Positions 44,796-54,794 of a DNA stretch of 64,000 nucleotides are shown one piece after another. The position numbers and the translations under genes are program-made. Source of the stretch: Paucibacter sp. KBW04 (lineage in GTDB: Bacteria; Pseudomonadota; Gammaproteobacteria; Burkholderiales; Burkholderiaceae_C); assembly GCF_003852425.1 (NCBI RefSeq), contig NZ_QAJN01000008.1:62001-126000 (forward strand), written 5' to 3'. The notes beneath the pieces are model-generated. The model did no database searches and was not told the origin of the DNA. It was given only the letters and a program-made list of their open reading frames with translations. How positions within the stretch are numbered: the stretch's first letter is position 1; the number at the start of each line of letters is the position of its first letter.

Positions 44796-46946
44796 CTAGG
44801 CTTGCACGCTACGCAAATCCTGCGCCACCCGCCCGCCCTGCAAGGCGATGACCCGCTGCGCGGCGGCAATGGTTTCAGGCCGATGGGCGATGACGATTTT
44901 GGTCAGGGCCAGTTGGCGCAGTGAGGCGTTGACCTGGCGTTCCTTGTCCACATCGAGGGCGCTGGTGGCTTCGTCCAGAAACAGGAACTGCGGCTTTTTG
45001 TAAAGGGCCCGAGCCAGCAGCACGCGCTGGCGTTGGCCGCCGGAGAGGCTGTGGCCCATATCGCCGATCAGGCTTTGGAAGCCCATGGGCATGGCCACGA
45101 TATCGTCGAACACGCAGGCCAGGCGGGCACATTGCTGCACCCACTCGGCGTCGGCATCGGGGTCGAAGAAGCTGATGTTGTCGGCAATGCTGCCGGCGAA
45201 CAGCTGGTCGTCCTGCATCACTGTGCCTATGCGCTGGCGCCAGGCGGCCGTGCCGATCTTCTGCAGGGGCTGATCACCCAGCAGGATCTCACCCGACTGC
45301 GGCGCGTGAATGCCCAGCATCAGCTTGAGCAAGCTGGTCTTGCCGCAGCCCGAGGGGCCGATGATGGCGACCGATTCGCCGGGCTCGATGCGCAGGCTGC
45401 AACCCGCCACTACCAGGGGCTCGCCATCGGCATAGCGGAAGCTGACCTCGCGCAGTTCGAGGGCAAGCCCAGCAGTGTCAGCCGGGGGCAGGGCGACCAA
45501 GGCTTGCTCCGTCGCCTCGGGCGCCGTCAGCACGATGTCGGCCAGGCGCTCGCCTTGCAGGCGCAACATGCTCAGCTCCACCGTCTTGTCGATCAGGCCG
45601 GCTAGGCGCAGGCTGAACTGCTCTTTGTAGGCCAAAAAGGCGAACAACATGCCGACCGACAGCTCCCGGTCCAAGACTAGCAGGGCGCCCAGCCAGACAA
45701 TGGCCACCCGCTCCAGGCCGAACAGCAGCTTGTTGCCCACGCCCATCCACAGGTCCAGGCGGCGGATATGGATGGCGGCATTCATCTGCTCCACCACCAG
45801 ATTCGAGTAACTCGCACTCCGCTCGGCCTGGGCGTTAAACAGCTTGATCGCCTGGGCGCCGCGCAGCGATTCAAGAAAATGGCTGTTCTGCCTGGCCTCG
45901 TGGATCAAGGCCTCCTCCGAGGCCGCCCGCAGGGGCTTGAAGAAGCTCCAGCGCAGCAAGGCATAGCTGCCTACTGCGAGCAGCGCCACGGCGCTCAGGC
46001 GAGGGCTGTAGACCCACATCATGGCCAGGGTGACCAAGACCATCACCCCGTCCAGCACCGCTTCCGCAAACTGGGTGGAGAGCGAGCGCTGGATGGTCTG
46101 CACGCTGCCGAAGCGCGACCAGATATCGCCGATCTGGCGCTTCTCGAACCAGGCAAGGGGCAGGCGCAGCAAATGGGTGAAGACCTGGGTCAGCCATTGC
46201 ACATTCAGCGTGGCCGACAAAAACAGCACCGCCCAGGAGCGTAGCGCGCCCACCATCACCTGCAGCAAGACCAGCAGGCCAAAGCCCAGGCCCAGAGTCA
46301 CCAGCAGATCCCGGTCGGCGCTGACCAAGACGCCGTCCACCACCCATTGCAGCAAAAAGGGCGAGAGCAGGGCCAGCAACTCCAGCGTTACCGCCAGACC
46401 CAGGATGATGGCGACCGAGCGCCGCAGGCCGGAGATGCGCCCCAGCAGCTGGCGCCAGCGCAGCGGCGCGGGCTTGGCTTGGGGCACGAAATCGGCGGCC
46501 GGGCGCAGCTCCAGCGCGATGCCGGTGAAGTGGCGGGACAGCTCGGCCAGGCGGACGCTGCGGCGGCCGTGCGCCGGGTCGTGGATCACCGCCTCCTCGC
46601 CGCGCACCTCGGCCAGCACAACAAAATGGTTGAAGTCCCAGTGCAAGATGCAGGGCAGATGCAGCTGGGCCAGATGTTCGGGCTCGGCCCGCAGGGCGCG
46701 GCTCGTGAGGCCTAGCTCCGCAGCCATGCGCACCAGATCGGCCATGGTCGCGCCTTTGAGCGAGAGCGAGAAGCGGCCGCGCAGCTGGCGCAGATCGCAG
46801 TGCTTGCCCTGGGCGCTGGCGATCATGGCCAGGCAGGCCAGGCCGCATTCGGCCCCCTCGGTCTGCAGTACCACGGGCAGGCGTTTGCCGCCGCGCCAGC
46901 TCAAACGCAGTTTGGACAGCAGTGACGAGGAAGAGGTCTCAGACAC
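44796..46946 (-). CDS. C39-peptidase ABC exporter (PCAT/RaxB type) for a double-glycine-leader peptide
   Basis: 716 residues. Residues 20-150 are a C39 peptidase: oxyanion Gln28, catalytic Cys34 in EGAECGLACLAMIA, His in FNHFVVL and Asp in IHDPAHG, so the protease looks active. Six-helix ABC membrane domain follows (about 170-450), then the ATPase with Walker A GPSGCGKTS, signature LSGGQRQR and Walker B FLFLDEATSALD. Such proteins cut leader peptides after GG/GA and export the core. It overlaps the HlyD-type gene by eight bases and lies downstream of a precursor with exactly that kind of leader. Confidence 0.93.
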   Translation of the reverse strand: MSETSSSSLLSKLRLSWRGGKRLPVVLQTEGAECGLACLAMIASAQGKHCDLRQLRGRFSLSLKGATMADLVRMAAELGLTSRALRAEPEHLAQLHLPCILHWDFNHFVVLAEVRGEEAVIHDPAHGRRSVRLAELSRHFTGIALELRPAADFVPQAKPAPLRWRQLLGRISGLRRSVAIILGLAVTLELLALLSPFLLQWVVDGVLVSADRDLLVTLGLGFGLLVLLQVMVGALRSWAVLFLSATLNVQWLTQVFTHLLRLPLAWFEKRQIGDIWSRFGSVQTIQRSLSTQFAEAVLDGVMVLVTLAMMWVYSPRLSAVALLAVGSYALLRWSFFKPLRAASEEALIHEARQNSHFLESLRGAQAIKLFNAQAERSASYSNLVVEQMNAAIHIRRLDLWMGVGNKLLFGLERVAIVWLGALLVLDRELSVGMLFAFLAYKEQFSLRLAGLIDKTVELSMLRLQGERLADIVLTAPEATEQALVALPPADTAGLALELREVSFRYADGEPLVVAGCSLRIEPGESVAIIGPSGCGKTSLLKLMLGIHAPQSGEILLGDQPLQKIGTAAWRQRIGTVMQDDQLFAGSIADNISFFDPDADAEWVQQCARLACVFDDIVAMPMGFQSLIGDMGHSLSGGQRQRVLLARALYKKPQFLFLDEATSALDVDKERQVNASLRQLALTKIVIAHRPETIAAAQRVIALQGGRVAQDLRSVQA

Positions 46947-48192
46947 GATGGGCTAGGCTCAGAATGGGCTCGAAAATCCACTCGATCAAACGGCGCTTTT
47001 CCAGCATCACATCGGCGTCCAGCTGCATGCCGGCGGCCAGGGGCTGGGCTTGGCCGTAGGCCGAGACGGTTTGCTGGTCCAGCTTGACGGTGATGCGATA
47101 AAGCGGCTCGCTGGCCGGCCCTTGGCTCAGGGCCACGGGCAGGTTCAGGGTGGACAGCTCGGCCGGGCTCAGCGGGGTGCGTGAGACGTTCAAAACACTG
47201 CCGCTTTGTTGGCCAAACTTTTGATACGGAAAGGCCTGGTAACGCAGCTGCACCGCCTGCTGCGCGTGCAAAAAACCGACCGCGCTGGAGGGCGCGAACA
47301 GCTGCGCTTGCATCTGCGTTTGCGCCGGTAACACGCTGGCCAGGGGAGCGCCGCTGTTCACGCTTTGCCCGGGCTCGGCTTGCAGGGTGGAGACCATGCC
47401 ATCGCTGGGCGCACGCAGCACCAGACGGCGACGGCCTTCGGTTTCCAGGCCTTGCTGCTGCAGGGCGGCCAAGTCGCGGCTGATCTCGCCTTGCAGTACT
47501 TGGGTGCGTAGAGGCAGCTCGCGGGCTTGGGCCTCCACGGCCTCCAGATCGCGTTGCAAGCCCTCGCGCTGGCGTTCCAAGGCCTGGGCCTGGGCGCGCA
47601 GGCCCAAGAGCTCCTCGCGCTTGGTTTGCACCTGGGCGGTGGAAATGAATTGATCGCGGCTCAGCGACTCCAGCCGTGCCAGCGCTTCGCCGGCCAGGGC
47701 CAGTCGTTCGGCGTGCAGGGCGCTTTCCGCCTGCAGCTGGCCCAACTCACGCTGCAGGCCGCTGCGGCGTTGTCCGAGGGCGCGTTGCTGTGTTTCCAGC
47801 AGGCGTTGCTGCTGCTCGGCCGTACCTTGCAGGCTTTGCTGGCGTGCGCTCAGGTTGCGGGCAATGCCCTCGGGCGTCTGGCTGGCACTGTCCAGGGCGA
47901 GCACAAACAGCACATCGCCTTGCTTGACCTGCTGGCCCTCGCTGACCAAACGCGTGAGCACCGTGGCGGTTTGCGGCGCGTTGACGCGCAGCACGCCTCG
48001 ATCGGGCACCAAATAGCCGCTGACCCTGGCCTTGCGGGTGTACTCCGTCAGGCTCAGAAAGGCCCCGACCAAGAACAAACTGCCCACGGCCGCAGCGGTG
48101 AGCAGTTGGAGTGACAGCGGTGGCAGGACTTGCACCTGACCCAGCCAGCCTTTTTGATCTTGGCCAGCCAGGGCTTCGGGTCTGAACAGCAT
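46939..48192 (-). CDS. HlyD-family periplasmic adaptor of the peptide exporter (RaxA type)
   Basis: 417 residues. One N-terminal membrane helix (about 28-50), a beta-barrel/lipoyl half (SGYLVPDRGVLRVNAP), a long coiled coil rich in Gln, Arg and Leu (about 110-255), then the second lipoyl half (VLRAPSDGMVSTLQAEPGQSV) and C-terminal barrel. It would bridge the ABC exporter to an outer-membrane channel; no TolC gene is in the window. It is translationally coupled to the exporter and 71 bases downstream of the peptide gene. Confidence 0.92.
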   Translation of the reverse strand: MLFRPEALAGQDQKGWLGQVQVLPPLSLQLLTAAAVGSLFLVGAFLSLTEYTRKARVSGYLVPDRGVLRVNAPQTATVLTRLVSEGQQVKQGDVLFVLALDSASQTPEGIARNLSARQQSLQGTAEQQQRLLETQQRALGQRRSGLQRELGQLQAESALHAERLALAGEALARLESLSRDQFISTAQVQTKREELLGLRAQAQALERQREGLQRDLEAVEAQARELPLRTQVLQGEISRDLAALQQQGLETEGRRRLVLRAPSDGMVSTLQAEPGQSVNSGAPLASVLPAQTQMQAQLFAPSSAVGFLHAQQAVQLRYQAFPYQKFGQQSGSVLNVSRTPLSPAELSTLNLPVALSQGPASEPLYRITVKLDQQTVSAYGQAQPLAAGMQLDADVMLEKRRLIEWIFEPILSLAHRV

Positions 48193-48263: not shown

Positions 48264-48467
48264 TTACCAGCCGCCGCGTGGGCCAGGAGCTTCGATAGAC
48301 AGGCTCTCAGCTGCAGGAGGAGGCTCAACAATCCAGCCGCCGCGTGGGCCGGCGCCAGAAACTTGTTCAAGCATTTCAGCCGACAGTTCAAACGGGGCTG
48401 CGATCTTTGCAGTCGATTGAACGGAAGAAACTTGGGTCAAAGATTGAGTGGTTGCAGTTGCTTGCAT
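48264..48467 (-). CDS. Precursor of a secreted peptide with double-glycine-type leader and duplicated GPRGGW motif
   Basis: 67 residues from ATG 48467. Residues 1-39 are the leader, ending LSAEMLEQVSGA; counted from the cut, Leu-12, Ser-11, Leu-7, Val-4, Gly-2 and Ala-1 fit the C39-processed consensus. The predicted core is 28 residues, rich in Pro, Glu and Ala, and starts and ends with GPRGGW. The two motifs are encoded by an identical 18-bp direct repeat (48267-48284 and 48333-48350). No Cys is present, and no modification enzyme is adjacent. It heads the operon with the HlyD-type adaptor and C39 exporter. It may be a signal or a bacteriocin; I recognise no family. Confidence 0.82.
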   Translation of the reverse strand: MQATATTQSLTQVSSVQSTAKIAAPFELSAEMLEQVSGAGPRGGWIVEPPPAAESLSIEAPGPRGGW

Positions 48468-48548
48468 GATGGAATCCGTTCGTTGAACACACTCCAATGA
48501 GTGCTTGAAGTCAATTTCAACAGGACTTCTAGATGCCGGTAACTGTCA

Positions 48549-48568
48549 ACTCTGACACTTGTCAGAGT
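48549..48568. promoter_or_regulatory. lux-box-like palindrome upstream of the peptide operon
   Basis: ACTCTGACACTTGTCAGAGT: nine-base arms are perfectly complementary around a two-base centre, 20 bp as in LuxR binding sites. A TTGACA on the minus strand (48544-48549) abuts it, as expected for activation from a site overlapping the -35 region. It lies 81 bases upstream of the peptide start and 31 bases past the luxR-type stop codon. Confidence 0.65.
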
Positions 48569-48599: not shown

Positions 48600-49322
48600 T
48601 CAGCGGATTAAGCCAAGGCGAAGTGCTTTCAGAACGGCCTGATGTTTGGTTGTGCAATCCAGCTTTCGCATGGCGTTGCTGAGATGGAGAACGGCGGTAC
48701 GTTCGGAGATGCTAAGTATGGCGCCGACTTCCCATGCTGTCTTTCCATCCATAGTCCAACGCAGTGCTTCTAACTCTCGAGGTGTTAGGTGCAGGGTCCC
48801 AGAGGAAAGCACATCCTGGCCCTTGGGCATGATTACTCGCCAAGCGGCCTCCTGCGCATAGACCGCGAACAACTGGAGATCAGCCAGCATGCGGGTCATC
48901 AGCGATACATCAGTTGGCAGACCCTCGTCACGGTCGACGCCAAGAAAGAAGTGGCGCCCTTCTGGCATATGCAATGCCAAGGCAATTCCATTTCTATAGC
49001 CGAACTGGGCTTGGTCTTCCCAAAGTTGTGCTTGACCACAAGCGACATACGTCTCTTGGTTCCACACGATGGGAACACTTTGGCGTTTGCAGTGCTGCAT
49101 GACAGGGTCGCGCCGCCAAGTGTCCTTGTCGAGGAAGTGCTCGGCGTAAGACGCAGGCGTATTGTCAACCGTCTCAAATTCGGAAACGCCCAAGGTGTGA
49201 TCAACGACAGCTGTCGCAGACACCGTCGCAAAACCCAGACCCTGCGCGAAGCGAATGATTTCGCTACGGAATTGATCGCGGGATTGGGCTTCGAGTACCG
49301 ATTGGTAACCCCCCTGCAGCAT
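48600..49322 (-). CDS. LuxR-type transcriptional regulator without a cognate LuxI (LuxR solo)
   Basis: 240 residues from ATG 49322, the usual LuxR length; an in-frame ATG at 49442 would add 40 unusual residues. N-terminal autoinducer-binding domain: in TraR numbering Asp70 and Trp85 are kept (RRDPV ... IVW) but Trp57 is Tyr and Tyr61 is Phe. C-terminal GerE helix-turn-helix: LTPRELEALRWTMDGKTAWEVG and ISERTAVLHLSNAMRKL. No luxI is in the window. Base composition is visibly less GC-rich than the neighbours, hinting at transfer. It probably controls the peptide operon through the palindrome at 48549-48568. The ligand may be an acyl-homoserine lactone or another compound. Confidence 0.86.
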   Translation of the reverse strand: MLQGGYQSVLEAQSRDQFRSEIIRFAQGLGFATVSATAVVDHTLGVSEFETVDNTPASYAEHFLDKDTWRRDPVMQHCKRQSVPIVWNQETYVACGQAQLWEDQAQFGYRNGIALALHMPEGRHFFLGVDRDEGLPTDVSLMTRMLADLQLFAVYAQEAAWRVIMPKGQDVLSSGTLHLTPRELEALRWTMDGKTAWEVGAILSISERTAVLHLSNAMRKLDCTTKHQAVLKALRLGLIR

Positions 49323-49493: not shown

Positions 49494-49865
49494 ATGACCC
49501 CAGCCTGGATTGTGTATGCGTGGCCCCGAGTTTTGTGTAAGGCGTTGCACGTGCAACAGCTACAGTTCGCGCATTTAAGCACTCAAGTGTTGGTGCCAGG
49601 CGACGACAAACGGCCCTCTCTGGGGCAAACCCTGTGGCAGGGCGACGACGGTACGGCACGTGCTGGCGTGGCTTGGGACTGGGTCAGCATGCCGGCCGGC
49701 GTGGTGGCCATGGTCGATCCCATGGCCTTGATCACCAATCTGCAATTCCTCACGCCCGAGGGCGAGGTGCTGGCACCGTTTGAGTCGGCCCGCCAGCTCA
49801 ACGAGATCGTGCACGCCTTGCCCTGGCAGTACGAGGTGCAAAGAGCGCTATCGGCCCAGCACTGA
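49494..49865 (+). CDS. Hypothetical protein (about 123 aa)
   Basis: Open frame from ATG 49494, divergent from the luxR-type gene. The first 30 residues look atypical and the real start may be further in. The rest is folded-protein-like (WDWVSMPAGVVAMVDPMALITNLQFL ... LNEIVHALPWQYEVQ; cited here as short pieces). No family is recognised. No good ribosome site precedes the ATG. A very long inverted repeat follows and would end transcription. Confidence 0.55.
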   Translation: MTPAWIVYAWPRVLCKALHVQQLQFAHLSTQVLVPGDDKRPSLGQTLWQGDDGTARAGVAWDWVSMPAGVVAMVDPMALITNLQFLTPEGEVLAPFESARQLNEIVHALPWQYEVQRALSAQH

Positions 49866-50044: not shown

Positions 50045-51916
50045 TCAGCACTTGAACCACAGCGTGACGCAGGTGCCCTGGCCGAGTTCGCTTTCCACCT
50101 GCAGTCGGCCGCCCATCAGTTCCATCAATTCCTTGACGATGCTCACATTCAGGCCGGTGCCGGGGATGTGGCCCGAGGTGTCGGCACGGAAGAAGCGCTC
50201 TCCCATGCGAGCCAGGTGCTCGGCCGACAGGCCAATGCCTTGATCGCGGATCTCCAGGCCGCAAAAAGTCTGCGCCTGTACCGTCTCGTCTTCGCTGATT
50301 TGCTTGGTGGCGCGCACAAATCGCAGCGTCACCGGGCCGCCCTCGGGTGAGTATTTGTAGGCGTTGGACAAGGTGTTGAGCAGGATCTGCTGCATTTTCT
50401 GCGGGTCTATGCAGACTTGCGTGGGCACATTTGCGCCCTCCACCACGGGGCGCTCCCGGCCTTCCGGCGGCTTGAAGTCGGCTAAGAATTCGTCCACCAC
50501 CTGGGCCAGATCCAGCATGCCGAACTTGAAGTCGCTATTGCCGCGCGCCTCGATGCGGGCCAGGTCCAGCAGCTCGTTGAGGATGTTGATCATCAGCTTG
50601 CACTGGCGGTGAATGCGGGTCAGCATGTTCTGTCGCTTGGCCTCGGGGATCTCGCGGCCCACCATCAACTCGACAAAGCCGTAGATGCTGGTCAGCGGCG
50701 TGCGCAACTCATGCGCGGCCAGGGACAGGAACTCGGACTTCATGCGATCCAGGTTGTGAGCCTGGGTCACATCGCAGACGTACAACACCCGTTTGACGGC
50801 CGTGCTATCGCTTTGCCGGCCGCTGAAGCTGAGCACGCGGGGCTTGTCACCGCGCAGCGTCAAGACTTGTTTGGTCGGGCCAAAACAGGCGTCCAGGCCA
50901 GGGAAGGGCTGTTCGCTCTCGGCGGCTTGTTCAAGCAACAGGGTCTGCAGCTGTGTATCGGTCTGGCCCAGCACCTGCTCGGAGCTGAGCTGGGAGAGGC
51001 TCAGAAAGGCCTGGTTGGCGAACTGCACGCGGCCGCCTTCATCAAAGGTCAAGAGGCCGTCCGGGCTGAGGGTGAAGATGGCGCCCAGCTGGGCGTTCTG
51101 AGCCGCCAGCTGGGCTTCGTGCTGTTGCTGGGTCTGGATGCTGTCCTGCAAGACCAGCAAATGCTGTTGCAGCAGGACCGAGGCCTCGTTCAGCGACTTT
51201 TGCAGCTTCTGGAACTCCAGCGGGCCTTTCACTTCCAGCTGGGTCTGGCCCTCGCCGTCGATCAGAGTGGCGGCGAAGCGACCCGCCTCCTCGAACAGAG
51301 TCATGGTGGGGCGCATCAAGCGGCTCAGCAGCAGGGCGCTCAGGCCGATCACCAGGGCCACGGCCAGCAAGGCGTTGCGCCAGATCAGATGGCGCTGGGC
51401 CTGCAGCTCGGCCAGATCGGAATTCACCTGTACCCAGCCCACGGTTTTGGCACCGGCCTTGACCGGGCTCCAAGCGTCGAAGCGCATGCCATCGGCCGAG
51501 ATTTGGCTCAGGTCCTGCCCGTCTTGAGGCAAGGGCAGCAACTTCTGATGAGACTCGAATTTGGCGTGGGCCGGCCGGCCGGGTTCTTGATGAATCTCCG
51601 CCAGCAGCTGCCCCTGAGCCGAAAAGACATGGACCAGACGAACATTGCGATGCTCGGCAAAGGCGATCACCAGGCCTTCCAGCTCGTCCAGGCGATCGCT
51701 CAGGATCAGATTGCCCGAGGCCAGGGCGATGTGCCGGGCCAGGGCGCGGCTCTCGGACTCCATATGGGCCAGATTGCTGCGCTGCTGCTGGTAGCCTCCC
51801 CAGCCTCCCCATAGGCCCAGGGCCAGCAGCAAGACCAGGCTGACCATCAAGATGGTCTGGGTCTGCAGATGTTGAGGGCGCAGTCCGCGCCAAAGGGCAA
51901 GCAGCTTCTCCATCAC
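50045..51916 (-). CDS. Membrane sensor histidine kinase with PAS domain (paralogue 2)
   Basis: 623 residues. TM1 about 21-43, a periplasmic sensor of about 130 residues, TM2 about 183-203, a HAMP-like/coiled segment, PAS (AIFTLSPDGLLTFDEGGRVQF), HisKA with the H-box SLAAHELRTPLTSIYGF, and HATPase with NTLSNAYKYSPEGG, DQGIGLS and GTGLNVSIVKEL. It lacks a receiver domain; no response regulator is adjacent. The architecture and long stretches, such as RFFRADTSGHIPGTGL, are shared with the kinase at 52884-54794. It lies 12 bases after the PhnD-like gene, so the three form one operon. Confidence 0.92.
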   Translation of the reverse strand: MMEKLLALWRGLRPQHLQTQTILMVSLVLLLALGLWGGWGGYQQQRSNLAHMESESRALARHIALASGNLILSDRLDELEGLVIAFAEHRNVRLVHVFSAQGQLLAEIHQEPGRPAHAKFESHQKLLPLPQDGQDLSQISADGMRFDAWSPVKAGAKTVGWVQVNSDLAELQAQRHLIWRNALLAVALVIGLSALLLSRLMRPTMTLFEEAGRFAATLIDGEGQTQLEVKGPLEFQKLQKSLNEASVLLQQHLLVLQDSIQTQQQHEAQLAAQNAQLGAIFTLSPDGLLTFDEGGRVQFANQAFLSLSQLSSEQVLGQTDTQLQTLLLEQAAESEQPFPGLDACFGPTKQVLTLRGDKPRVLSFSGRQSDSTAVKRVLYVCDVTQAHNLDRMKSEFLSLAAHELRTPLTSIYGFVELMVGREIPEAKRQNMLTRIHRQCKLMINILNELLDLARIEARGNSDFKFGMLDLAQVVDEFLADFKPPEGRERPVVEGANVPTQVCIDPQKMQQILLNTLSNAYKYSPEGGPVTLRFVRATKQISEDETVQAQTFCGLEIRDQGIGLSAEHLARMGERFFRADTSGHIPGTGLNVSIVKELMELMGGRLQVESELGQGTCVTLWFKC

Positions 51917-51928
51917 GCGGCCCCCCGC

Positions 51929-52801
51929 TTACTCGACATAGCGTTCAAGATGGAGCTTCTCCAGCGGTGCGTAGTCGCGCGCATAGTCGGCGCGAGTCGG
52001 CTTGGGCATGGGAATGTCCTCAAACTGCGCTTTGAGGGTGGCGTCATTGGCCAGCTTCAAGAGCGCACCGGCCACGGCCTGCTGCGCCGCCTGGGGCACA
52101 CGGGGATGCGCGCTCAGCGGGTGAGGCGCGGTGGGCGGGGTTTCCATCAGCACCCGCAAGGCGGCACGCACCTCCTCGGACTCGCCGTCCAGCGTGCTGC
52201 GTATGCCTCCGCCGGCCAGCGCCTTGCCCAGCAAGATCTGCCGATAGGTGTTGGCATGGGTCTTGGCGAAAAAGGGCTGGAAGCTGACGCGGTAATGCTC
52301 GCTCAGCTCGGCCCGGATCAGCAGCGAGGCCCCCAGGGCATTGGGCGCCGGGAAGGCCAGCACCTTGCCTTGCAAGTCCTGCACGCTTTTGATGGCGGAG
52401 TCCTTGCGCACAAGCAGCAGGCCAACCAGGGGCTTGCTGTCGCGCAGCAGCGGGGTGTAGCCCTGGCTCGCATGGGCTTGCACCTGGTGAAAGGGGTTCA
52501 TATAGGCAAAGTCGGCCTTGCCGCTGTTCAGATCGGCCTCGAAAGCCGGGATGTCACGGCTGAGCTTCAGCGTCAGCCGGAGGCCGGTTTCTTGCTGCAC
52601 GCGCTCCAGGATGGGCCCCCAGCTGCTCTGTATATCGGCAGCCTGGAACTGCGGCACGACGTAAAGCGAATAGCTCGGGGGCGAGGGCGGCGCTGCCTTG
52701 GCCGCCCCAGCCGTCAAAAGCAGTAGCAAGCCGGCCATGCCGGCCAAAGCCTTGTTGCGATCAAGCGGAAGCCATGAACCAAAGGGCATGAACGACTCCA
52801 A
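51929..52801 (-). CDS. PhnD-like periplasmic substrate-binding protein
   Basis: 290 residues with a signal peptide (cleavage near AAKAAPP). The body matches phosphate/phosphonate-type binding proteins: LYVVPQFQAADIQSSWGPIL, LNSGKADFAYMNPFH, VLAFPAPNALGASLLI and the closing KPTRADYARDYAPL. No ABC permease or ATPase partner is present; instead it sits between two sensor kinases in an operon. That suggests it presents a ligand to the kinases instead of feeding a transporter. The ligand need not be a phosphonate. Confidence 0.88.
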   Translation of the reverse strand: MESFMPFGSWLPLDRNKALAGMAGLLLLLTAGAAKAAPPSPPSYSLYVVPQFQAADIQSSWGPILERVQQETGLRLTLKLSRDIPAFEADLNSGKADFAYMNPFHQVQAHASQGYTPLLRDSKPLVGLLLVRKDSAIKSVQDLQGKVLAFPAPNALGASLLIRAELSEHYRVSFQPFFAKTHANTYRQILLGKALAGGGIRSTLDGESEEVRAALRVLMETPPTAPHPLSAHPRVPQAAQQAVAGALLKLANDATLKAQFEDIPMPKPTRADYARDYAPLEKLHLERYVE

Positions 52802-52883
52802 ACAGCAGCTGCCAGATCAGGCTATCACGCGCCGCGGCGTCGAACAAGGAGCGATTGACTGGTAAGTTATGTGGTGTGAGAAA

Positions 52884-54794
52884 TCAGCACTTGATCCACA
52901 AAGTAATGCAGGTGCCTTGGCCCAGCTCGCTCTCGATTTGCATATGGCCGCCCATCAAATCCAGCAATTCCTTGACGATGCTGACCCCCAGACCGGTGCC
53001 GGGGATATGGCCCGAGGTGTCGGCGCGGAAGAAGCGCTCGCCCATGCGGGCCAGGTGCTCGGCCGAGAGCCCGATGCCGTGATCGCGCACTTCCACGCCG
53101 AAGTGGCGCCGGCCTTCCAGGTTGTCGCCATCGGCCATGCGCTTGCCCTGCACCAGGCGCACCTCGACCGGGCCGCCGCCGGGGGAGTATTTATAGGCAT
53201 TGGACATGGTGTTGAGCAGGATCTGCTGCATCTTCTGCCGGTCGATGCAGACCATCATGGGGGCCTGGCCCGGTTGGCGCAGCTCGAAGCGGGGGCGCTC
53301 GCGGCCTTCCGGCGTCTTGAAGTCGGCCAGGGTTTCGCTGACGATATCGCTCAGATCCAGGGTCTCGAACTTGAAGTCGCTGGCGCCACGCGCCTCGATG
53401 CGGGCCAGGTCCAGCAGCTCGTTGAGGATGCTGATCATCAGCTTGCTCTGCCTGTGGATGCGCGAGAGCATGGCCTGGCGCTTGGGCTCGCTCATCTCGC
53501 GGTCCAGCATCAGCTCGATGAAGCCGAAGATGCTGGTCATGGGCGTGCGCAGCTCGTGCGCCGCCAGGGACAGGAACTCCGACTTCATCCGGTCCAGCTC
53601 ATGCTGCTGGGTCACATCGCAAACATACAAGACCCGACTCACCGAGGCTGAGTAGCTGTGCTGGCCGCTGAGCGTGAGCACGCGGGGTTTTTCACCGCGC
53701 AAGGTCAGGGTTTGGGCCTCGCCGACCTCGGTGTCGGGGGCGGCGAAGCAGGCTTGCAGGCCGGCGAATTCCTCGCCATCAACGGCGCGGGCCAGCAGCA
53801 AGGACTCCAGTACCGTGTCGTTCTGGCCCAGCACATCGCCGGGCTGCAGATCGGTCAGGGTCAGAAAGGCGCGGTTGGCAAACTGCACCCGACCCAATGG
53901 GTCGAAGGTCAGCAAGCCGTCGGGGCTGAGGGCAAAGATGGCGCTGAGCTGGTCGTTTTGCTCCTCCATCTGCGCCTCGTGGGCCTGCTGGCGGTTCATG
54001 GCGTCCTGCAGCACGATCATCTGTTGCAGCAAGAGCACCGAGGCTTCGTTGAGGGCCCGGCCCAGCTCGACGAACTCGATCGGGCCCTCGTCCACGGGGT
54101 GGGTGACCCCGCGCGCATCGGCCAACTCATTGGCAAACTGACGGGCCTGTTCCAGCGCCCGCATAGGCCGGTTCAGCATGGCGTGCAGCAGCACGGCGCA
54201 AAGGCCGACCAGCAGCAGCGCCACCAGCACCGTGTCGCGCCAGATGTCCCGCTGCAATTGCTGCAGCGAGCTCAGGTCAAAGTCCAGCTTGACCCAGCCC
54301 AGCAGGCGCTCGCCAACCACTGGATGCCAGACCTCCAGATGCGAGCCGTCGGCCGCCGCCTTCAGGCTGGGCAGCACCTGGGCCGGGACGGCCTCCTGGG
54401 GTCGAGCCGCGCTGGCGCCTAGCGCCGCCTGCTTGAGCACCGGGTTGGCAAATGCCGCCTGGTGCATGGGCTTGACCATCTGCACCAGCAAGAGCCCCTC
54501 GGGGGAGATCACTTGCAAGGCGCGCACACCCTCAAAGCCGGCGTAGCTGAGCACCAGAGCGTCCAGCTCGGCGCGTTTGGAGGACTCAATCAGCTGCGCG
54601 CTGGCCACCGCCAGGCTGCGCGCCAGGGCCGCCGCCTGGGTTTGCATGGCTTGGTGGGCGTTCAGGCTTTGCTGCTTGACGGTGAAGGCCCCCAGCAAGG
54701 TAGTGGCCAGGATCAGCAGGCCCGCCACCAGCAGCATCAGGCGATGCTTGAATCGCCGCGGCCAAAGTTTGCTTGCGAGCGGGAATGAGGGCAT
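52884..54794 (-). CDS. Membrane sensor histidine kinase with PAS domain (paralogue 1)
   Basis: 636 residues and the same plan as its paralogue: TM1 near 17-38, periplasmic sensor, TM2 near 185-205, PAS (AIFALSPDGLLTFDPLGRVQF), H-box SLAAHELRTPMTSIFGF, HATPase with NTMSNAYKYSPGGG, DHGIGLS and GTGLGVSIVKEL, ending LWIKC as the other ends LWFKC. First gene of the kinase/PhnD-like/kinase operon (83 bases to the next gene). The periplasmic parts differ more than the cytoplasmic parts, so they may sense different states of one ligand system. Confidence 0.92.
   Translation of the reverse strand: MPSFPLASKLWPRRFKHRLMLLVAGLLILATTLLGAFTVKQQSLNAHQAMQTQAAALARSLAVASAQLIESSKRAELDALVLSYAGFEGVRALQVISPEGLLLVQMVKPMHQAAFANPVLKQAALGASAARPQEAVPAQVLPSLKAAADGSHLEVWHPVVGERLLGWVKLDFDLSSLQQLQRDIWRDTVLVALLLVGLCAVLLHAMLNRPMRALEQARQFANELADARGVTHPVDEGPIEFVELGRALNEASVLLLQQMIVLQDAMNRQQAHEAQMEEQNDQLSAIFALSPDGLLTFDPLGRVQFANRAFLTLTDLQPGDVLGQNDTVLESLLLARAVDGEEFAGLQACFAAPDTEVGEAQTLTLRGEKPRVLTLSGQHSYSASVSRVLYVCDVTQQHELDRMKSEFLSLAAHELRTPMTSIFGFIELMLDREMSEPKRQAMLSRIHRQSKLMISILNELLDLARIEARGASDFKFETLDLSDIVSETLADFKTPEGRERPRFELRQPGQAPMMVCIDRQKMQQILLNTMSNAYKYSPGGGPVEVRLVQGKRMADGDNLEGRRHFGVEVRDHGIGLSAEHLARMGERFFRADTSGHIPGTGLGVSIVKELLDLMGGHMQIESELGQGTCITLWIKC

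Follow-up and report, generated by a model that had tools for sequence, protein, structure and literature searches.

Within the window analyzed here, a 64,000-nucleotide stretch of the Paucibacter sp. KBW04 genome, a gene for a 67-residue peptide precursor is preceded on the same strand by a LuxR-type gene and followed by genes for an HlyD-type adaptor and an ABC exporter (Table 1). The sequence-only reading of this DNA had described the ORF, its double-glycine-type leader, the exact 18-bp repeat and the exporter genes directly downstream. All of these hold, and the Peptidase_C39 match of the exporter is nearly complete (profile positions 2–132 of 133). Right about the exporter side, that reading had missed the other side of the locus, namely the upstream LuxR-type and RsaM-like genes and a lux box.

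Table 1. Features of the peptide locus (positions in the window)
Feature	Position	Strand	Basis
ABC exporter with C39 peptidase domain	44796–46946	−	PF03412, E 1.2e-35
HlyD-type adaptor	46939–48192	−	profile match
Peptide precursor gene, 67 aa	48264–48467	−	ORF list, counterparts in relatives
Second GPRGGW unit, immediately before the stop codon	48267–48284	−	18-bp repeat
First GPRGGW unit, immediately after the leader	48333–48350	−	18-bp repeat
Leader, 39 aa, double-glycine type, ends VSGA	48351–48467	−	sequence
Extended -10 element, TGTTGAAAT	48514–48522	−	conserved TGnTnnAAT
lux box, GTGTCAGAGTTGACAG, between LuxR and peptide genes	48543–48558	−	pattern match
20-bp palindrome (9-2-9, perfect arms), overlaps the lux box	48549–48568	−	sequence
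LuxR-type regulator, autoinducer-binding domain and GerE HTH; proposed peptide receptor	48600–49322	−	profile matches, covariation
RsaM/DUF4902-like protein, divergent	49494–49865	+	profile and neighborhood

The leader ends in ...FELSAEMLEQVSGA, and the 28-residue core that follows is GPRGGWIVEPPPAAESLSIEAPGPRGGW. Both GPRGGW units use identical codons and lie 66 bp apart. In shuffled windows, 0.64 matches to the 18-bp unit are expected with up to three mismatches; the window has the two exact copies and no others. Both marks of a C39-exported double-glycine peptide are present, namely a leader of this type (VSGA) and linked genes for a C39 ABC exporter and an HlyD adaptor. A ribosomal peptide with a modification enzyme (RiPP) was considered and rejected: the window peptide scores 12.4 bits with the XyeA triceptide precursor model (NCBIfam), whose cut-off is 33, and no radical SAM or other modification enzyme was seen among the eight neighboring proteins scanned, in agreement with the earlier description of the peptide as unmodified.

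The LuxR-type protein (start MLQGGYQS) matches both Autoind_bind (PF03472, 4.1e-24) and GerE (PF00196, 5.6e-15). The DUF4902 match of the RsaM-like protein is below the Pfam cut-off (17.7 versus 25 bits). Eleven of 13 members of its family match DUF4902 at E ≤ 0.1 (best 4.9e-5), and the match to the solved BCAM1869 protein, an RsaM, is weak (4o2h, E 0.26). Elsewhere in the window (50045–54794, minus strand), two PAS-domain histidine kinases flank a phosphonate-type periplasmic binding protein. These kinases were set aside as candidate receptors because a close kinase match is absent beside the cassette in most of 14 relatives.

The arrangement RsaM–LuxR–peptide, mostly followed by HlyD and C39 exporter genes, recurs in the Roseateles/Rubrivivax family. 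A precursor-only search of 399 genomes of the family gave 22 matches in 20 genomes. Seven (L014, L015, L016, L018, L019, L020, L022) were dropped because their frames were long or interrupted by stops and lacked leader and unit; the other 15, each from a different genome, are precursors. LuxR is present at all 14 loci fetched from relatives, and the RsaM-like gene (one contig ends first) and HlyD plus exporter at 13 each. The conservation of ORF and motif beside homologous exporters, on which the earlier proposal had been staked, is thus present. A LuxR alignment search returned 178 relatives in named genomes, the best 80 of which were kept and combined with the window and seven further loci into a set of 88. 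Among these best 80 of 178, an RsaM-like gene adjoins LuxR in all and HlyD lies downstream in 65. The nearest named relative of the window is Roseateles oligotrophus (G013, same genus). LuxR relatives at E ≤ 1e-60 (paralogues included) occur in 101 of the 399 family genomes. When 300 genomes were drawn from the order, 3 had relatives at E ≤ 1e-65; two of these are within the family, and in the third, a weak match (G509), no unit was seen. Tandem groups of three to five LuxR paralogues of this clade are found at L185 (G096), L175 (G197), L179 (G066), L170 (G212) and L172 (G344). In each group a unit-bearing precursor was recognized after one copy only, and the pocket residues of the extra copies differ; these copies may listen to peptides of other species or neighbors.

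We next consider the unit itself. A small unit-bearing ORF follows LuxR in all 88 loci (including the best 80 of 178), with the unit mostly xPxxxW. This hexamer is found in 79 of 88; since the search was for this motif, the constancy of its Pro and Trp is in part built in. The remaining nine have LPRVS, LPRVG, LPRVGGL, LPRIGGL, LPRVGGW or TPRGGSW. Precursors hold one (37 loci), two (44), four (4), five (2) or seven copies (1, L110). Of 51 multi-copy genes, 45 have copies that all agree at the amino acid level, and 38 of the 45 use different codons from copy to copy; APKSGW, for example, is encoded as both GCCCCCAAGAGTGGCTGG and GCGCCGAAGTCCGGCTGG. Between species the units vary (51 distinct entries), and a change hits all copies of a gene together. 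The unit comes directly after GG or GA in 48 of 88 precursors. In 70 the listed unit forms the exact C-terminus; in 5 of the other 18 it does not because the last copy is a variant, and a free C-terminal Trp is thus not universal. At L098 (LPKATW) and L109 (APGRRW) the core is six residues only, and at L044 two units follow one another with no linker. Because units are identical within genes, six-residue cores occur, and linker and spacing vary, the hexamer is, judging from these comparisons, what selection keeps, rather than the linker, the spacing or a bivalent form. The earlier idea of a deliberately repeated unit holds, and the accompanying suggestion of cutting into identical hexapeptides fits best, since the core of some relatives is the hexapeptide alone and others have 4–7 copies.

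Units without Trp (LPRVS, LPRVG, LPRVGGL, LPRIGGL) occur at seven loci (L051, L065, L070, L077, L080, L111, L114), all of which have Leu at LuxR position 75, usually Met. Among distant LuxR relatives, five (L188, L193, L196, L200, L201) are followed by leaderless ORFs of 18–21 residues that end in units such as FPRTGGW, LPKTGGWA, LPRGGGW and NPKGGW. Because of these ORFs, the link between peptide and LuxR may be older than the exporter.

The promoter region has a fixed layout. The lux box of the window is the only exact match to TGTMAGAGTTGACAG in its genome. Downstream of LuxR, a strict pattern picks out a lux box in 73 of 88 loci (0 of 4400 shuffles) and a relaxed one does so in 83. The last six bases of a conserved TGnTnnAAT lie 24–29 nt after the box, placing it near −43, the usual location of lux boxes in LuxR-activated promoters. 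In 24 genomes the exact pattern occurs 24 times (18 of the genomes have it), with 17 occurrences at the peptide promoter; a reversed-pattern control gave none. Seven exact boxes lie elsewhere. One, in the window's genome (L120; G000 contig C12, 166194–166209), is between divergent M4 and M28 peptidase genes, and one in the nearest relative (L209; G013 contig C4) is upstream of another M4 metallopeptidase gene, 30% identical. The other five showed no M4 or M28 relative, and membership of these peptidase genes in the regulon is suggestive only.

To assess which residues vary with the unit, we scanned 58 non-redundant loci across 950 variable columns of LuxR, the RsaM-like protein, HlyD and the ABC exporter. 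The best column was LuxR 114 for unit position 1 (then 126), LuxR 100 for position 3 (then 59) and LuxR 69 for position 5. For position 4 the best was exporter residue 125, in the C39 domain, with LuxR 63 and 55 second and third; covariation with the exporter residue may reflect cleavage-site recognition. By ungapped alignment, LuxR 114, 126, 100, 59, 69, 63 and 55 correspond to LasR Thr115, Ala127, Phe101, Trp60, Ala70, Tyr64 and Tyr56, respectively. Thr at unit position 5 goes with Gly69 in 16 of 17 cases, and Gly with a bulky residue 69 (Trp, Met or Tyr) in 31 of 33. Asn at position 3 goes with Lys100 in 9 of 10, and Gly at position 1 with Phe126 in 11 of 11. The pattern reads like size matching.

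Shared ancestry contributes to these signals, since RsaM 100 and exporter 516 score highly too when unit positions are summed. Independent pairs were counted on a tree of 64 loci built from the three other proteins, with bins chosen after the tables were seen. Gly at unit position 5 and a bulky residue 69 went together in 14.8 of 15 pairs, none opposite (p about 6e-5), and Gly at position 1 with Phe126 in 8 of 8 (p 0.008). Significance was not reached at position 3 (5 same, 0–1 opposite, of 8), nor for position 4 against 55 or position 1 against 114. When all 554 splittable columns of the four proteins were divided by one fixed size split, LuxR 69 netted 14.8 and the runner-up column 5.5; this split is blind to the relations at 126 and 100, whose states mostly share one size class. 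We also used a set of pocket positions fixed beforehand from LasR docking passages of PMC12061423. These outscored all other columns at unit position 1 (p 0.0045), 3 (p 0.00019) and 4 (p 0.00099) and in the sum over unit positions (p 4.2e-5). At position 5 they did not (p 0.62); the set lacks LasR Ala70.

Rules written down in advance were then applied to held-out loci. Of 78 regions from the LuxR list, chosen so as to leave out matches at contig ends, a single frame containing a stop and the majority of matches with E above about 1e-75, 28 duplicated training loci and 50 were new. Fourteen went unscored: L142 (no downstream DNA), L148 (no precursor seen), L161 (a heptamer), and L188, L191 and L193–L201 (distant, with none or other unit forms). 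The other 36 became 34 on subtraction of two near-duplicates; among the 34, L127 and L171 each share about 97% LuxR identity with a training locus. With relatedness ignored in the p-values (Fisher), the position 5 rule was right in 22 of 25 loci called (p 1.1e-4), including bulky with Gly in 9 of 9, and all three misses had Ser or Cys at 69. On the same basis, the position 3 rule was right in 28 of 33 (p 1.9e-4), and the position 1 rule was weak (30 of 34; Phe126 with Gly in only 2 of 5; p 0.05). The L188 unit, NPKGGW, appeared later and is outside these counts. Likewise, the units of L055 and L102 (LPRNGW and LPRAGW), found after their pockets were seen to resemble those of L071, L076 and others, are not counted as a test, no prediction having been written beforehand. 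Between the window and its nearest relative, identity is 98% for the RsaM-like protein, 95% for HlyD, 96% for the exporter and 97% for the LuxR HTH, versus 84% for the LuxR ligand domain. Such faster divergence is expected if signal and receptor change together. Taken as a whole, the covariation makes direct contact between the unit and the LuxR pocket very probable.

What has become of the lactone site in these proteins? A model of the window LuxR has the expected LuxR fold (pLDDT 86.5); its best PDB match is QscR (6cbq, E 1.1e-15), and RhlR, LasR (domain 2uv0) and SdiA also match. In LasR, Tyr56, Trp60 and Ser129 govern the ligand response, according to passages of PMC10613653. The Tyr56 site is Thr, Ala or Cys in 83 of 88 loci, the Trp60 site is Tyr or Phe in 84 (Trp is kept in 3), and the Ser129 site is Gly in 87. 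The lactone-contacting Asp (LasR Asp73) is kept in 86. Only Asp, then, is retained in the clade among these four lactone contacts, and the lactone site as a set is not there. A LuxI search that matched in 61 of the 399 family genomes and 0 of 14 control genomes found no match in the window's genome or in 12 of 15 carriers overall (three of the 12 are only 61–86% complete); carriers G013, G218 and G258 have one. The window's genome, free of LuxI matches, encodes a second LuxR-type protein with an autoinducer-binding domain (L117; G000 contig C30, 281471–281896).

These data suggest that the GPRGGW cassette probably encodes a ribosomal hexapeptide pheromone with the adjacent LuxR-type protein as its activating receptor. 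The active unit would be the hexapeptide GPRGGW, stored in two copies. Judging from the leader, cleavage by the C39 exporter would fall after VSGA, the core would be exported, and further trimming would free the unit. The hexapeptide would then be taken back into the cell and occupy the pocket in which LasR holds its lactone; direct binding to LuxR is strongly inferred. Peptide-bound LuxR would in turn switch on the peptide operon from the lux box near −43, in a positive feedback loop. Activation rather than inhibition is suggested by the promoter geometry, that is, by the position of the box and the conserved extended -10 element. Signaling between cells, maturation and re-entry are presumed steps of this scheme. 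One idea is that aminopeptidases may be blocked by the invariant Pro at unit position 2, which would leave xPxxxW as the end point when longer products are trimmed.

How closely the unit is tied to export bears on the strongest alternative, in which the peptide is a private intracellular signal that binds LuxR in the producing cell as a self-activating switch, export only clearing the surplus. A GG-like site is missing ahead of the first unit in six precursors, every one of which comes from the 15 loci (of the best 80 of 178) with no HlyD gene downstream. Four of them are leaderless and 18–19 residues long (L055, L071, L076, L102; for example MQATHQTQTTTLLPRNGW), and two are leaderless with several units (L105, L110). 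Twelve genomes were checked for HlyD relatives at E ≤ 1e-30, and both positive controls matched. None was found in four leaderless genomes, all of one genus. The unit thus stays with LuxR after loss of leader and exporter; it is tied to LuxR more than to export, which lends a private role some plausibility. Yet 82 of 88 precursors have a GG-like site and 65 of the best 80 of 178 loci an exporter. Moreover, an HlyD relative is encoded elsewhere in each of the six genomes checked that have a leader but lack an adjacent exporter (best match 36–42% identical over most of its length), and the rapid change of the unit among closely related species is in keeping with signaling between cells. We therefore consider a purely private signal unlikely.

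Alternatively, the peptide could bind LuxR as an inhibitor (an anti-activator), the true inducer being another molecule, such as a foreign lactone. Covariation shows contact and not its sign, the lactone-site Asp is kept, and passages of PMC10134790 assign a negative regulatory role to RsaM-type neighbors of LuxR genes. But by covariation the peptide sits in the ligand position, the other lactone contacts are replaced, and the promoter layout points to activation, which together make this reading improbable. A bacteriocin or other exported effector under LuxR control, with the repeat serving a target outside the cell, would account for the leader and C39 exporter, the usual class II bacteriocin arrangement, and for rapid diversification. 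It is very unlikely, as cores can be only six residues, no immunity gene was seen among the eight neighbors scanned, and an outside target leaves the covariation with the LuxR pocket unexplained. Finally, the bivalent 28-residue linear peptide that the sequence-only reading had put forward as an active form has in its favor that two copies are commonest (44 of 88), but with a single copy in 37 of 88, two units without a linker at L044, and spacing, linkers and copy number that vary while the hexamer is kept, it is hardly credible.

The known ligands of LuxR receptors are lactones and a handful of other small compounds. The best reading of the cassette is a new kind of signaling unit that pairs a LuxR-type receptor with a ribosomal hexapeptide. 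With somewhat less assurance, we favor the broader view that it represents a third chemistry for quorum sensing of the LuxR type, the receptor family having been re-tooled for a gene-encoded hexapeptide, with a readable residue code and species-specific pherotypes arising by paired mutation. For instance, Gly at unit position 5 would call for Trp, Met or Tyr at 69, Thr at position 5 for Gly69, and Asn at position 3 for Lys100. If true, two textbook halves of quorum sensing would be joined: peptides in Gram-positives and LuxR in Gram-negatives. As genes encode both signal and receptor, and the two covary, specificity could be read from sequence and tested with cheap synthetic hexapeptides; how the two specificities change together would become directly testable. 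In open PubMed Central full texts, we found no description of a LuxR with its own ribosomal peptide, nor is there one in passages of PMC10134790, PMC4338825 and PMC13220807, a 2026 review.

How does this cassette compare with known systems? It shares with LuxI/LuxR lactone systems (LasR, QscR, RhlR, SdiA) the LuxR fold and domains, a lux box at the signal gene, an apparently autoregulated signal gene and an RsaM-like neighbor. Here, however, a ribosomal peptide gene replaces luxI, Tyr56, Trp60 and Ser129 are replaced, and most carriers have no LuxI match. The RRNPP-type short peptide pheromones of Gram-positives, such as NprX and PapR, use a tetratricopeptide receptor and the Sec route. NprR is covered in passages of PMC13220807. 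Like those pheromones, the unit is short, linear and species-specific, comes from an exported precursor, sometimes in several copies, and has a cytosolic regulator as its proposed receptor. That regulator is of LuxR type rather than a tetratricopeptide protein, and the host is Gram-negative and uses a double-glycine leader and C39 exporter.

Among LuxR solos of the PipR/OryR type, PipR was described as responding to Ser-His-Ser at high concentration (PMC4981722) and was later listed with the ethanolamine derivative HEHEAA (table in PMC10134790). A LuxR homologue has thus been reported as peptide-responsive. In that case, though, the signal comes from outside, from plants, the neighbors are a peptidase and an importer, and there is no precursor gene; neither a proline iminopeptidase nor a peptide importer was found among the eight neighbors scanned here. 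PluR of Photorhabdus, as described in passages of PMC10134790, is a LuxR receptor whose signal is not a lactone and depends on a gene linked to it. PluR and DarR resemble the present case in having their own non-lactone signal from a linked gene, but that signal is an enzyme-made pyrone or dialkylresorcinol. Peptides with double-glycine leaders and C39 exporters, such as ComC and class II bacteriocins, are linked to a histidine kinase or an immunity gene. The leader, HlyD-type adaptor and C39 ABC exporter of the cassette are of the same kind, whereas the peptide carries a six-residue repeated unit and is linked to LuxR.
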